From contig CACLAF010000006.1 in the NCBI GenBank assembly GCA_902604855.1, positions 1 to 64,000 of the forward strand: DNA of 64,000 nt, given 5' to 3'. The translations under genes and the position numbers were made by a program. Of this stretch, positions 39,034 to 44,455 are shown piece by piece (position 1 is the stretch's first letter; the number at the start of each line of letters is the position of its first letter). The DNA comes from an uncultured SAR86 cluster bacterium. GTDB lineage: Bacteria; Pseudomonadota; Gammaproteobacteria; Magnimaribacterales; Magnimaribacteraceae. Under the pieces are notes generated by a model, which saw only the letters and a program-made list of their open reading frames with translations, ran no database searches and had not been told where the DNA came from.

Positions 39034-39840
39034 ATGAATGACGCGATACAAAAAGAATTAAATAATGATGGAGTCCTAAAACTCAGTCTTAATAGACCTG
39101 AAGTTCTTAATGCGATGAATGCAGACCTTATAATGGGTCTTTTAGATGCCTTATACGAAGCTAAATCCGATAAAAAAGCAAGATCTATTATTATCACAGG
39201 CAATGGAAGAGGTTTCTGCTCTGGAGCAGATTTAATTGAAGGTGGCTGGCCTAAAACAGAAGGGTTGTCAGCAGGAGAGGCAGGTTCTATGAATATGGAA
39301 AATGCATTCAATCCACTTGTAAAAGCTATAACGCAATCTACAAAACCGGTTGTGAATGCAATCAATGGAATTGCAGCTGGAGGTGGTGTTGGGTTGGCTC
39401 TTACAGGAGATATAGTTATAGCTTCAGAATCTGCAAAATTTAAATTAGTTTTTGGACCTAATCTAGGTATCATTTCTGATGTTGGAGCATCCTGGTTTGT
39501 GCCTAATTTAATTGGAAGAGCTAGGGCTAATGGTATGGGGCTTCTCGGTGAAGACATTTCAGCAAAACAAGCTAAAGAATGGGGGCTTATTTGGGACTGT
39601 GTACCAGATGAGGAATTAATGCCAAAAGCAGAAGAGATAGCAAAGAAGTTAGCTAATGGACCTATAACTGGACTTAAAGAAATAGTGAAAGCTCACGATA
39701 AAGCTTTATCTGGTTCTTTGAGCGAGCAATTGGATTACGAAAAAGAAACCCAAAGGATTAGACTCGATTCAAAAGATTTCAGAGAAGGCGTTACCGCTTT
39801 TGCTGAAAAAAGAAAACCAAATTTTAAAGATCTAGATTAG
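39034..39840 (+). CDS. Enoyl-CoA hydratase/isomerase family protein
   Basis: A 268-residue crotonase-fold enzyme. The oxyanion-hole segments are GNGRGFCSGADL and NAIAAGGGVGLALTGDI-type (INGIAAGGGVGLALTG). The fold acts on CoA thioesters as hydratase, isomerase or related. The usual catalytic glutamates are not clearly assignable: the second position reads near GASWFVPN, where hydratases have Glu, so isomerase or other chemistry is possible. It is cotranscribed with the MFS gene and overlaps the convergent CIA30 gene by four bases. Confidence 0.88.
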   Translation: MNDAIQKELNNDGVLKLSLNRPEVLNAMNADLIMGLLDALYEAKSDKKARSIIITGNGRGFCSGADLIEGGWPKTEGLSAGEAGSMNMENAFNPLVKAITQSTKPVVNAINGIAAGGGVGLALTGDIVIASESAKFKLVFGPNLGIISDVGASWFVPNLIGRARANGMGLLGEDISAKQAKEWGLIWDCVPDEELMPKAEEIAKKLANGPITGLKEIVKAHDKALSGSLSEQLDYEKETQRIRLDSKDFREGVTAFAEKRKPNFKDLD

Positions 39841-40367
39841 TAAAGCTCAATACTAGCTAAATCAATATCCGCATAAAAATCTTTACCAAAAGCCACGATT
39901 CCAATCGATTTAATATCGGATGCTTTAAACTTTCGTGGCAATATCAGTCCTGACTTTTTAAATGAAGCAAAGGGTATCTCAATATATTGCCAGTCACTAG
40001 TTGTATTGAAAGATGCGGCGTAATAGTTCCAAGGTAGGCGAGTTTTTGGAGTTCTAATATGAATAAAATACTCTTCTCCATTTCCCCTGGTCATTATTTT
40101 TAAACCTTCATAGGGTATGTCATCTATAACAACTCCAGCTCTAAATTGGATAAAACCACCATTATTTTCTGTGCTCACGTTTCCTTCCATATGATAAAAG
40201 GATATTTCTTCTTCTTTTCTTTCAGAAAAGTTAATTTCAGAAATGCCCCCCATAACTTTATCTGAAAAAGGTAACCATTTAACTCTTTCATTATCTAAAT
40301 TATCTATAACTTTTGTCATGGTCATCAAGGGGAAAAATAAAATAAGAATTGCTACTAATCTTTTCAT
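39837..40367 (-). CDS. CIA30-domain protein with signal peptide
   Basis: A 176-residue protein with an N-terminal signal-like segment (about 1-19) and a CIA30 domain. Recognisable parts are WLPFSDKVMGGISEINF, MEGNVSTENNGGFIQFRA and GLKIMTRGNGEEYFIHIRT. CIA30 was first found in a mitochondrial complex I assembly factor; bacterial secreted versions are carbohydrate-binding-like folds of unknown role. It is divergent from the PQQ dehydrogenase gene, so a shared context with periplasmic redox proteins is possible. Confidence 0.85.
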   Translation of the reverse strand: MKRLVAILILFFPLMTMTKVIDNLDNERVKWLPFSDKVMGGISEINFSERKEEEISFYHMEGNVSTENNGGFIQFRAGVVIDDIPYEGLKIMTRGNGEEYFIHIRTPKTRLPWNYYAASFNTTSDWQYIEIPFASFKKSGLILPRKFKASDIKSIGIVAFGKDFYADIDLASIELY

Positions 40368-40458: not shown

Positions 40459-42663
40459 ATGAAAAATAAAATCTTCTACATGGGACTGTTGTTAATATTA
40501 GTTATTACAGGATGTAGTAATTCAAATGAGAAAGAATTAATAGAAAGTTCTGAGGTATCAGGTTCATCTTCAATAGGTTTGATTGATGATGAGAGAATAT
40601 TGTCTGCTGAATCGGAACCTGGAAATTGGCTAGCTTTCGGAAGAACTTATGATGAACGAAGATTCTCTCCACTCAAGCAGATCAATAAGGATAGTGTCTC
40701 TAATCTTGGTCTAGTGTGGTCAAAAGACATGGGTACGAACAGAGCATTGGAAGCAACACCTATTGTTGTCGATGGAATAATGTTTTTTACAAGTACGTGG
40801 AGCAGAGTTTATGCTGTAGAAGCTTTGACTGGAGAGACTGTTTGGAGTTTCGATCCAAAAGTACCCGGTGAATGGGCGAGAAAAGCTTGTTGTGATGTTG
40901 TAAACAGAGGCGTTGCTGTGTACAACGGAAAAGTTTACTCAGCCAGTTTAGATGGTCGATTATTTGCTTTGAATGCAGAGACTGGGGAGAAGATTTGGGA
41001 AGTAGATACAATTATTGATCGGGAAAGGTCATATACGATAACTGGAGCGCCTAGAGTTGCTAAAGGAAAAGTATATATAGGTAATGGTGGAGCCGAATAT
41101 GGAGTTAGAGGTTATGTGACTGCCTATGATTCAGAGACTGGAGATCAGGAATGGAGATTTTTTACAGTCCCTGGAAATCCTGCTTTAGGTTTTGAAGATC
41201 CTGCTATGGAGATGGCTGCTAAGACATGGAAAGGTACAGATTGGTGGGAATTTGGAGGCGGAGGAACTGTTTGGAATTCAATAGTCTATGATTCTGAATT
41301 TAATAATATATATCTTGGTGTAGGTAATGGTTCACCATGGACAAGAGAAATAAGATCTCCAGGTGGAGGCGATAATTTATTCCTATCATCTATCGTAGCT
41401 GTGGATGCCGACACAGGTGTTTATAAATGGCACTACCAAACTACTCCTGAAGATAATTGGGATTATACAGCCGTTCAGGATATGGCTCTGGCTGATATGG
41501 AAATTGATGGAGAAATGAAAAAGGTTTTACTTCAAGCTCCAAAAAATGGTTTCTTTTATGTAATTGATCGATCAGATGGTAAGGTACTCAGAGCCCATCC
41601 TTTTGCAGCAGTTACATGGGCAACACATGTTGATTTAGAAACTGGAAGACCAGTTGAAAATCCTGAAGTTGATTATTCTGATAATGGTGCGTGGGTACTT
41701 CCTGGACCTTTAGGCGCTCATAACTGGCAAGCTATGTCTGTTGATATTGATTCGGGTCTCGCTTACATACCAACTCAAGAAAACCCTTTCTTCTACGCGG
41801 TACAGGAAGACTATAAAAAGACAGGTATATTCAAATGGACTCCAGGTAAGTGGAATATGGGGTTAGAAATGAGTTCTTTGGCACAAAATATACTTAATAA
41901 TCTTGATTCACAACCAAAACCTGGAGGTTTTTTAAAGGCTTTTGATCCCCTGACAGGAGAAACAAAATGGTCTGTGCCTATTCCACATTATTGGAATGGA
42001 GGTGTTCTGGCAACTGCTGGAGGCCTAGTCTTCCAGGGCGATGCTCTTGGTATGTTCTCTGCCTACGATAAAGACACTGGCGAAAGACTATGGGAGTTCA
42101 ATACTTATACTTCTATGCTAGCTCCACCTATAACATTTGAGATAGATGGAGAACAATATGTCTCAATACTAACCGGTTCAGGCGGAGGTGACTTATTTGG
42201 CGGAGAACCATTACCTCCGTTAGAAGTACAAGCATCTCTTACCTACAACAATTTCGGAAGGTTGTTGGTTTTTAAATTAGGAGGACAAGAAACCTTACCA
42301 ATACCAGATGTAAGAGACACTACTATTCCAGAACAAAAACTAGTTCAAGTAAGTATCGATCAACTTCAAGACGGCGAAAGTAAATATAATGAAAATTGTG
42401 CTGTTTGCCATGGTTTTGTAGTCAAATCAGGAGGTGCGATACCTGATTTGAGAAAAATGTCTGCAGGAGTCCATGATGCCTTTAATCAGATAGTATTAGA
42501 AGGTCTCTTGGCAGGTGGTGGCATGGCATCTTTTTCAGATGTACTAACAGAACAGGAAGTAGAAAATATTCATCACTATGTAAAAGCAAGAGCTCATGAA
42601 GATAGAGAGGTAGCCCTAGGAAATATGGAAGCTCCTCAATACACTTGGTTTGGACAAGAGTAA
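40459..42663 (+). CDS. PQQ-dependent quinohemoprotein dehydrogenase, probable lipoprotein
   Basis: An eight-bladed PQQ enzyme fused to a cytochrome c domain (734 residues). The lipobox VITGC (Cys19) predicts lipidation. Adjacent Cys144-Cys145 (KACCDVVNRG) form the vicinal disulfide over PQQ, and NWDYTAVQD carries the catalytic-site Asp/Trp region. GAHNWQAMS is typical. The C-terminal heme site is Cys647-x-x-Cys650-His651 (CAVCHG). It oxidises an alcohol or related substrate in the periplasm and passes electrons to the respiratory chain. PQQ synthesis genes are not in the window. GAGGT precedes the start. Confidence 0.92.
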   Translation: MKNKIFYMGLLLILVITGCSNSNEKELIESSEVSGSSSIGLIDDERILSAESEPGNWLAFGRTYDERRFSPLKQINKDSVSNLGLVWSKDMGTNRALEATPIVVDGIMFFTSTWSRVYAVEALTGETVWSFDPKVPGEWARKACCDVVNRGVAVYNGKVYSASLDGRLFALNAETGEKIWEVDTIIDRERSYTITGAPRVAKGKVYIGNGGAEYGVRGYVTAYDSETGDQEWRFFTVPGNPALGFEDPAMEMAAKTWKGTDWWEFGGGGTVWNSIVYDSEFNNIYLGVGNGSPWTREIRSPGGGDNLFLSSIVAVDADTGVYKWHYQTTPEDNWDYTAVQDMALADMEIDGEMKKVLLQAPKNGFFYVIDRSDGKVLRAHPFAAVTWATHVDLETGRPVENPEVDYSDNGAWVLPGPLGAHNWQAMSVDIDSGLAYIPTQENPFFYAVQEDYKKTGIFKWTPGKWNMGLEMSSLAQNILNNLDSQPKPGGFLKAFDPLTGETKWSVPIPHYWNGGVLATAGGLVFQGDALGMFSAYDKDTGERLWEFNTYTSMLAPPITFEIDGEQYVSILTGSGGGDLFGGEPLPPLEVQASLTYNNFGRLLVFKLGGQETLPIPDVRDTTIPEQKLVQVSIDQLQDGESKYNENCAVCHGFVVKSGGAIPDLRKMSAGVHDAFNQIVLEGLLAGGGMASFSDVLTEQEVENIHHYVKARAHEDREVALGNMEAPQYTWFGQE

Positions 42664-43224
42664 TTAGTTATCAAGAATCAACGTCTTTGGGGGAAGGCTG
42701 GGAGGAGGAACTTCAAAAAATTCAAATGAAGGTCCTCCCTCTTCAGGTTCTCCTGAAGTTTGGTCATACTGTGTAGACTCCTTTCCTTCATTGTCTTTGT
42801 TAACTACACCATAGGTTTTTTTTCCATTTAATTGTTCTCCTTCTTGGAGCTTATGCAATGCAGATTGAACTAGCTTTTGATTATCTTCATTCCAATACAG
42901 ATTGTAAGATCTAGGTTTTCCAAATTTTTTTCCAAATTCATCTAACTCAATAATCCATAAATAGAGACTGCCCTCTTTTTTTAATCTTTTGTCTGGCTCT
43001 TCTATAATAGCCCAATTAATCTGGAAGTTTTCGGGTAGTTCTTCAAATGTCGGCCATCCCAAAATAGACTCATAACCTTTCCAAGTAGTAATATAAAATC
43101 CAGTTGAAATAATTATAGTTAAAAGCTTGGTTTTCTTTGAAAAACTAGTGTGTAAACATATCGAAAGCAATAATATGGCTATGAACAAGTAGGCAAAAAT
43201 TAAAATTAGTCTTTCTTCAAGCAT
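42664..43224 (-). CDS. Uncharacterised membrane protein, third gene of a MotA/TolQ-like cassette
   Basis: A 186-residue protein with two predicted transmembrane segments (about 7-25 and 33-50), then a soluble region with many aromatic and charged residues (SLYLWIIELDEFGKKFG, PRSYNLYWNEDNQKLVQ) and a proline-rich C-terminus (EVPPPSLPPKTL). The topology puts the long tail outside or inside depending on orientation, which I cannot fix. I recognise no family. It begins three bases after the second cassette gene, and its stop touches the convergent PQQ gene stop. It is likely a partner of the two upstream membrane proteins. Confidence 0.75.
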   Translation of the reverse strand: MLEERLILIFAYLFIAILLLSICLHTSFSKKTKLLTIIISTGFYITTWKGYESILGWPTFEELPENFQINWAIIEEPDKRLKKEGSLYLWIIELDEFGKKFGKPRSYNLYWNEDNQKLVQSALHKLQEGEQLNGKKTYGVVNKDNEGKESTQYDQTSGEPEEGGPSFEFFEVPPPSLPPKTLILDN

Positions 43225-43227
43225 ATA

Positions 43228-43842
43228 TTACTTATTTCCAAGTGCTTTAGTTATAAGCCTCTTAGGAATTTGATTCAAATCTGAGATATTTTTTTGACTA
43301 TCTACGTAGAATCTCAATGCCGTCATCTCATCTCCTACGCCATTTAAGAAATGTTCTCCATAATAAACTAACTCTACTGAGGGGTTTAATTTCTCCACTT
43401 TTACAGTTACTGGAAGAGGTTCTTTGAAATTTGACTTATAGTGTAAGAGATTAATTATATATTCTCCAGACTGCAGACCTCTGACAGTGATAGTTTCTTG
43501 ATTTATAGGATTAGAAACGACCTCGCCATTAATATTCAGATTATCTGCTAAATTTCCTCTATCATCTCTATCTAAGTGCATTAGTCCTGAATCTCTGTTG
43601 TGATACCAAACTAAACTCCCTTGCGGATCTTCAACAATTGCATCTACATCATCTGGATGATCATCTGGCCACTGAACTGAGATAAGTATTTCTGCTTTCG
43701 ATCTAATATTTCCTGTTTCTTCCGAGCTGTTTATCAACATAAAAGCTATAGCAAACATAAAAGCAAATCCAAGTAATGCATTAAAAAGTAAGTCTGTAAA
43801 AACATCCTGTTCTTCAGACTTACTAAAAATTTTATGTTTCAT
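43228..43842 (-). CDS. ExbD/MotB-like single-TM protein with periplasmic beta domain
   Basis: 204 residues. One transmembrane helix (about 18-40) is preceded by Asp17 (DVFTDLLFNALLGF), the arrangement of ExbD, TolR and MotB, in which a conserved Asp at the helix start carries protons. The remainder is a predicted periplasmic beta-rich domain (ISVQWPDDHPDDVDAIVEDP, then GSLVWYHNRDSG and LDRDDRGN) resembling YfaP/DUF2135-type domains, rather than the usual TolR/OmpA-type ending. It overlaps the TolQ-like gene by 11 bases. The role is inferred from architecture; no close family is recognised. Confidence 0.7.
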   Translation of the reverse strand: MKHKIFSKSEEQDVFTDLLFNALLGFAFMFAIAFMLINSSEETGNIRSKAEILISVQWPDDHPDDVDAIVEDPQGSLVWYHNRDSGLMHLDRDDRGNLADNLNINGEVVSNPINQETITVRGLQSGEYIINLLHYKSNFKEPLPVTVKVEKLNPSVELVYYGEHFLNGVGDEMTALRFYVDSQKNISDLNQIPKRLITKALGNK

Positions 43843-44455
43843 TGAAAGATTTTGATGATAAATAATTTAGGCTATTGCTGAGGCTTGAATCAAGAATAAA
43901 ATATTGAAATTTCAATAGAATACTCGTCACAAGACCGGTCAAAGTTGTGTAAAGCGCAACAGCCATTCCTCCACTCATAGTTGAAAGAAGCTTTTGGAGA
44001 ATTTGAGGATCAAAGTCTTGAATTTGTCCAATTGGAAGAAGCATCAGTATGAAACCAATAACAGTACCAGTTAGACCAAGCTTAAGAAGAATATCAACTG
44101 ACAAATAACCAAGTGCATGCCTATTTGATAGTTCATCCTCCAAAAGAGATAGTTGAATGTTTCGATCAGCAGACCCTAAATTTTCGTTATTTTCTAAAAA
44201 AGAACTCATCAATGTTCCTTTTTTAGGTTCATCTAGATCAGATATCTCCTTATCTAGTCTAAAGGCATTATAAAACCAATGAAAAGTAGCCAGAATATAG
44301 ATAAAGATAATTATGATAGATATTTTGCTCTTATCTGAATCAATTATTAATGACAAAAGACCAAGATCTACAATCAAAAAGGCGGCAAAAAATATCAGTG
44401 ACATTAATATTGACGACCTCAATAACAAATAATTATTTTTTTTTGAAATTATCAT
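43832..44455 (-). CDS. MotA/TolQ/ExbB-like proton-channel protein
   Basis: A 207-residue protein with about four transmembrane segments (10-37, 45-65, 120-145, 160-185). LKLGLTGTVIGFILMLLPI and MSGGMAVALYTTLTGLVTSIL correspond to the two pore helices conserved in MotA/TolQ/ExbB (compare LGLFGTV and the Thr-rich GLFAAIP helix of TolQ). The cytoplasmic loop is acidic (about 75-115). It heads a three-gene cassette with an ExbD/MotB-like partner. Unlike exbB/tolQ it has no tolA, tonB or pal neighbour, so it may energise a different envelope process. Confidence 0.78.
   Translation of the reverse strand: MIISKKNNYLLLRSSILMSLIFFAAFLIVDLGLLSLIIDSDKSKISIIIIFIYILATFHWFYNAFRLDKEISDLDEPKKGTLMSSFLENNENLGSADRNIQLSLLEDELSNRHALGYLSVDILLKLGLTGTVIGFILMLLPIGQIQDFDPQILQKLLSTMSGGMAVALYTTLTGLVTSILLKFQYFILDSSLSNSLNYLSSKSFNET

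Follow-up and report, generated by a model that had tools for sequence, protein, structure and literature searches.

What is the task of a compact set of three membrane-protein genes in an uncultured SAR86 cluster bacterium, the first of which belongs to the MotA/TolQ/ExbB superfamily? The genes lie in a 64,000-nucleotide stretch of genomic DNA (hereafter the window), on the minus strand, and are read in the direction A, B, C. Gene A (43832-44455) encodes a four-segment protein of 207 aa, gene B (43228-43842) a protein of 204 aa with one transmembrane (TM) helix and a predicted periplasmic TerD-like beta-sandwich, and gene C (42664-43224) a membrane protein of 186 aa with one or more N-terminal TM segments and a small C-terminal domain. 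The three reading frames were found where a preliminary description of this DNA had placed them, with A and B sharing an overlap of 11 bases and C lying 3 bases beyond B. Also in agreement with that description, no TolA, TonB or Pal gene and no ZorC, ZorD or ZorE gene was found among the neighbours. Upstream (5') of A, the window encodes a GFA-domain protein and a short-chain dehydrogenase. The next gene past C, convergent and with zero gap, encodes a PQQ-dependent alcohol dehydrogenase with a C-terminal cytochrome c-like part (40459-42663, plus strand; TIGR03075, 625 bits vs a cut-off of 480), which is a partner of the trio by association and lies outside the operon. Beyond it, a CIA30-domain protein (85 bits) is encoded at 39837-40367 of the window, between the dehydrogenase gene and an enoyl-CoA hydratase gene.

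Protein A passes the Pfam model PF01618 (MotA_ExbB) with 36.5 bits against a gathering score of 22.9 and contains four hydrophobic segments, as expected of the four-TM MotA/TolQ/ExbB-type protein previously described. A profile built from 34 of its relatives matches the solved structures of MotA (8gqy, 1.4e-5), a ZorA-like chain (8vvn, 1.9e-5) and PomA. Residues Gly127 and Gly130 of TM3 and Thr171 of TM4 are kept in 136-137 of 137 relatives (Gly130 in 137, Thr171 in 136), and Thr131 in 111 of them. The NCBIfam equivalog models MotP, TolQ and ZorA match A only far under their cut-offs, at 12.7 of the 221 bits set for TolQ and 11.8 of 700 and 10.6 of 100 bits set for ZorA. Judged by its sequence, A is a minimal member of the MotA/TolQ/ExbB superfamily. 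The phage versions described below are shorter, with only about 140 aa, and consist of the four TM segments nearly without a cytoplasmic part.

Protein B has a single TM helix followed by about 160 residues expected in the periplasm. The aspartate at the start of its helix, already pointed out in the preliminary description, corresponds to Asp17 and is present in 127 of 139 relatives; the remaining 12, from Bradyrhizobium-like genomes and loci L093, L097, L098 and L100 (L098 read at full length), retain Asp13, which lies a single helical turn from it and is present in B of the window as well. In the soluble domain, eight residues (Trp58, Asp65, Asp67, Asp93, Asp94, Gly96, Glu116 and Glu172) are invariant in all 139 relatives. 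The predicted model of B (pLDDT 85) is a beta-sandwich, and its alignment with VIA-align ranked within the first six rows the TerD-family structures 3ibz, 2qz7 and 2kxt and also 2qng, an uncharacterised protein from Streptomyces that resembles them, the TerD rows having Z values of 8.9-11.1 over 130-141 residues and those from rank 7 onward 6.0 or less. By Foldseek alone, the model had no significant match. Sequence similarity to TerD is weak (profile score 20.2 vs 12.0 +/- 2.2 for shuffled columns, 1 of 150 of which scored as high; HHalign probability 2%), and neither Pfam TerD (PF02342) nor the ExbD/TolR-type domain was matched by B up to E = 1. A label of DUF2135/YfaP-like domain, given to B initially, was dropped: Pfam DUF2135 yielded not one match up to E = 1, and the model resembles TerD instead.

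Taken as a prediction, a TerD-like fold for the periplasmic domain of B has fair support. Acidic D-x-D and D-D-x-G motifs occur at similar positions in B and TerD; in contrast to the TerD family, which comprises cytoplasmic tellurite-resistance and stress proteins, B is membrane-anchored and probably periplasmic. From its invariant acidic residues one might guess that B binds Ca2+.

Protein C matches nothing in Pfam, NCBIfam, PHROGs or PADLOC, and is thus as unrecognisable to these libraries as it was at first sight. Two TM segments had been proposed for it; a strong hydrophobic segment at residues 6-24 bears out the first, and the second is likely only from a predicted helix at residues 30-55. 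The proline-rich tail also noted there holds for SAR86 and is variable elsewhere. Motifs GWP and PR are conserved, with GYP in place of GWP in many phages. The model of C contains a small beta-rich domain of low confidence (pLDDT 66), and its fold matches (eIF5A and SSB-like OB rows, with Z of about 7 or less) fall in the range of chance and were not used. Searches by sequence retrieved no solved structure related to B or C.

Do these proteins belong to one of the established ion-driven systems? The trio shares with TolQ-TolR and ExbB-ExbD a four-TM pore protein with Gly and Thr residues (A), a single-TM partner with an aspartate at the helix start (B) and the adjoining position of their genes, but differs from them in the absence of TolA, TonB and Pal, in the predicted TerD-like domain of B, in the obligate presence of C and in the failure of A to reach the TolQ cut-off. 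A direct TolQR/ExbBD role was rejected because cut-offs and partners fail and because SAR86 has further, separate MotA_ExbB-family genes. With the MotA-MotB and PomA-PomB stators the trio has in common the profile matches of A and the aspartate of the partner; unlike in these stators, the cytoplasmic torque domain of A is short or absent, and no flagellar genes are near. A MotAB stator was also disfavoured by the beta-sandwich model of B and by the lack of a Pfam match in B to an OmpA-type peptidoglycan-binding domain. These results uphold the earlier view of the trio as something distinct, that is, a conserved unit that falls short of the TolQ, MotP and ZorA cut-offs, lacks their standard partners and coexists with other members of the MotA_ExbB family. 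The trio may be read, from its sequences, as an energised envelope machine. No description of it was found in the literature covered, which had most subscription journals outside its scope. A survey of MotAB relatives, in the part of it considered here, separates flagellar from generic ion transporters, many with appended unknown domains, and in that part makes no mention of the trio (PMC12505986).

In order to learn whether the three genes travel together, their order was followed in other genomes. In every SAR86-family locus compared, B and C come directly behind A. Of 321 genomes of the class, 35 contain a relative of B by profile search, as do Bradyrhizobium-like genomes, for which the genus is suggested in part by the annotation 'Bll5685' in phage AF3. 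Codon-based gene calls recovered the order A, B, C in 51 of 53 loci, most of which are bacterial and come from many different Proteobacteria. The two exceptions are L112, a 3.3 kb contig in which A was not recognised, and L150, where C was not recognised; in L090 other genes are inserted between A and B. Conservation of the trio as a unit, which the preliminary description had left to be looked for in other genomes, was also evident in phages, with 57 of 58 loci keeping the order, and such constancy across bacteria and phages goes far beyond what chance would give.

The genes that follow C differ between bacterial loci. A gene for a VWA-TM-FHA protein (family assigned by Pfam) lies directly 3' of C in 11 loci (L078-L100; e.g. 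L079:7476-8996), many of which carry DUF302 and L,D-transpeptidase genes 5' of A, and about ten loci have this VWA-FHA gene yet no quinoprotein adjoining the trio. In 9 others, including L096:10784-11488 and L104:10829-11512, C is directly followed by a lipoprotein gene with weak DUF3108_like similarity, mostly in quinoprotein contexts. Because of such company, the trio is not tied to quinoproteins everywhere. Searches run without a positive control found neither VWA-FHA nor lipoprotein genes in five SAR86-family genomes. A tandem double C was observed in L093:8403-9507, L097:6137-7240, L098:10198-11249 and L100:8669-9708, loci in which B lacks Asp17 and has only Asp13.

A further companion of the trio is the PQQ alcohol dehydrogenase seen in the window. 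Among the 321 genomes of the class, this enzyme is encoded in 24 of the 35 with the trio vs 28 of the 286 without it (p = 6e-14), and, when counted by family, in 16 of 22 vs 20 of 151 (p = 2e-8). Outside SAR86, a dehydrogenase gene is found no more than 20 kb away in 8 of 33 trio loci, where 0.78 would be expected (p about 7e-7). Since related genomes are not independent, these p values are optimistic. In all 28 SAR86-family relatives that have A, the dehydrogenase gene is beside it on one contig, and of six genomes of the family lacking A, four have no such dehydrogenase and two have others only.

In two loci the trio is found among genes for PQQ synthesis or use. The order in L104 is pqqB, pqqC, pqqD, pqqE, A, B, C and the lipoprotein gene, with the trio on the strand of pqqE, and in L096 it is pqqD, pqqE, a regulator, the dehydrogenase, PedF, a binding protein, a SoxYZ-like carrier, a relay hydrolase, CXXCW, A, B, C and the lipoprotein gene; these families are backed by profile matches, except for pqqD and the pqqE of L096, which were assigned by eye. 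Such neighbours (PQQ dehydrogenase, PedF, SoxYZ-like carrier, relay hydrolase, CXXCW and pqqBCDE) liken the surroundings of the trio to ped/exa PQQ-dehydrogenase clusters, although no publication reporting a MotA/TolQ-like trio within such clusters was found. The unknown purpose with which the trio was first reported can thereby be narrowed, by co-occurrence, co-location and shared loci, to one linked with alcohol dehydrogenases of the quinoprotein type. There is a slim chance that this link is mere hitch-hiking through a common lifestyle and genome layout, the trio having an unrelated task. This would accord with the lack of a dehydrogenase in 11 of the 35 genomes of the class that carry the trio and with the convergent orientation in SAR86, but not with L104, where pqqE precedes the trio on one strand, or with L096, where CXXCW precedes it.

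How SAR86 obtains the cofactor bears on a second explanation. PQQ enzymes require PQQ together with Ca2+ or a lanthanide. No pqqE was found in six SAR86-family genomes, one of them 95% complete, and these genomes may therefore rely on PQQ from outside. Many bacteria depend on external PQQ, and E. coli takes it in through the TonB-dependent receptor PqqU (PMC12124388). The trio could thus be a Ton/Tol-style energiser of outer-membrane uptake, here importing PQQ or lanthanide, as SAR86, having the enzyme and apparently no PQQ synthesis, would need such import; genes that by eye look TonB-receptor-like, located close to the trio of L080 and L141, would fit. We regard this as improbable, given that the trio comes without a TonB-, TolA- or Pal-like gene, sits also in the pqq operon of a producer, and shares the SAR86 genome with separate MotA_ExbB-family genes.

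The trio is not confined to bacteria. Protein B from the marine IMG/VR contig L046 matches 27 Rhizobium and Sinorhizobium phage records, and scans of IMG/VR with phage-type B queries gave 35 and 14 loci; viral contigs queried with C or with gammaproteobacterial B gave no match. The 58 phage loci mentioned above comprise Rhizobium phages and metagenomic viral contigs. Isolated phages with the trio include RHph_N3_13, AF3, RL2RES and 16-3, which rules out a binning error. Their trio genes are annotated as 'hypothetical' or bear only a number, and PHROGs has no name for any phage trio protein. B and C, like the phage versions of the trio, go unnamed in every family library. Two phage types were distinguished: in T4-like phages the trio lies amid replication and late-sigma genes, and in 16-3-like phages a gene for a trypsin-like protease stands just 5' of A in 25 loci (e.g. 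L118:5286-6185), an assignment verified by Pfam for one of the 25 members. In a tree of B the two types stand apart and SAR86 forms one group, deep support and rooting being too weak to give the direction of donation. PQQ genes are not among the recurrent neighbours of phage trios. Two small phages have endonuclease insertions in their trios, of HNH type between B and C and of Seg-like homing type between A and B (L155:4535-5077 and L156:3243-4001), and retain all three genes. A von Willebrand A domain gene (L152:5335-5528) is located about 2 kb 3' of the trio in Rhizobium phage RHph_I1_18.

Presence in phages, and in the replication region of T4-like ones, raises the possibility of a Zorya-like anti-phage or superinfection-exclusion device taken over by phages. 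The best PADLOC matches of A are indeed ZorA models (7e-5), and 8vvn is one of its top solved relatives. Nevertheless, A lacks the ZorA tail and stays far under the ZorA cut-offs, no ZorC, ZorD or ZorE genes accompany it, B has no OmpA-type domain match, and the locus is fixed in the SAR86 family, unlike patchy defence islands. Membership in Zorya was rejected on the cut-offs and neighbours, and a device of this kind seems quite improbable to us.

A broader explanation is that the trio is a general envelope energiser or sensor with no specificity for PQQ, one motor core fitted with varied outputs, so that quinoproteins would account for just one of its uses. The candidate outputs encoded next to the trio do vary, being VWA-FHA proteins in some bacteria (11 loci), the lipoprotein in others (9 loci) and the trypsin-like protease in phages (25 loci), and the predicted TerD-like fold of B would suit such a role. 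VWA and TerD proteins occur together in Ter stress systems too. Against this stands the strength of the PQQ association, both in profile and in position and in distant lineages, and we consider a general energiser somewhat unlikely.

Our preferred reading, held tentatively and with a little less than even confidence, is that A, B and C form a 5:2-type ion-driven inner-membrane complex which in cells serves periplasmic quinoprotein alcohol oxidation and in phages occurs in a stripped-down form. Counted against the quinoprotein role were the trio genomes without dehydrogenase, the VWA-FHA loci, the absence of PQQ genes from the recurrent neighbours in phage loci and the fact that the SAR86 dehydrogenase is convergent and not co-transcribed. 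The conserved pore Gly and Thr residues of A and the aspartate of B fit a 5:2 ion-driven complex, in which A, by homology, would supply the wheel, as a pentamer, and B the axle, as a dimer. Asp17, or else Asp13 at one turn's distance in the helix, would be the ion-binding residue of B, and ions passing the pore of A at this aspartate would make B turn or shift. The output would be delivered in the periplasm by the acidic TerD-like domain, perhaps in a Ca2+-bound state, together with C, an obligate third subunit that probably has a periplasmic docking domain, both acting upon a target in the periplasm or the outer membrane. For lineages with quinoproteins, this target would most likely be the supply or assembly of PQQ enzymes, i.e. 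the provision or insertion of the cofactor or its metal, and phages might employ the reduced trio for a purpose of their own.

What is familiar in the trio is its pore pair; its novelty lies in the domain proposed to deliver the output, in the third subunit, in the association with quinoproteins and in the occurrence in phages. To our knowledge, only a few kinds of ion-driven 5:2 machine exist, each with its own output. It is possible, if on the doubtful side, that the trio represents a class of envelope motor that has so far had no name, is driven by ions, delivers its output through a TerD-like domain and always includes a third subunit, and that this motor supplies cofactor or metal to periplasmic quinoproteins in bacteria and was acquired by phages of two or more lineages. 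If so, the 5:2 machines would gain a kind distinguished by a new output domain and by its third subunit, and tailed phages would, within the scope of the searches made here, be seen to encode a stator-like motor for the first time. Since the carriers of the trio range from marine bacteria of high abundance to Bradyrhizobium-like bacteria and isolated phages of Rhizobium, these proposals can be tested in culture. The trio offers a candidate answer to a question not yet settled for quinoproteins, namely how the cofactor or its metal is moved and inserted in the periplasm, and an energiser encoded by phages would raise the question of how a phage benefits from driving work in the envelope of its host.
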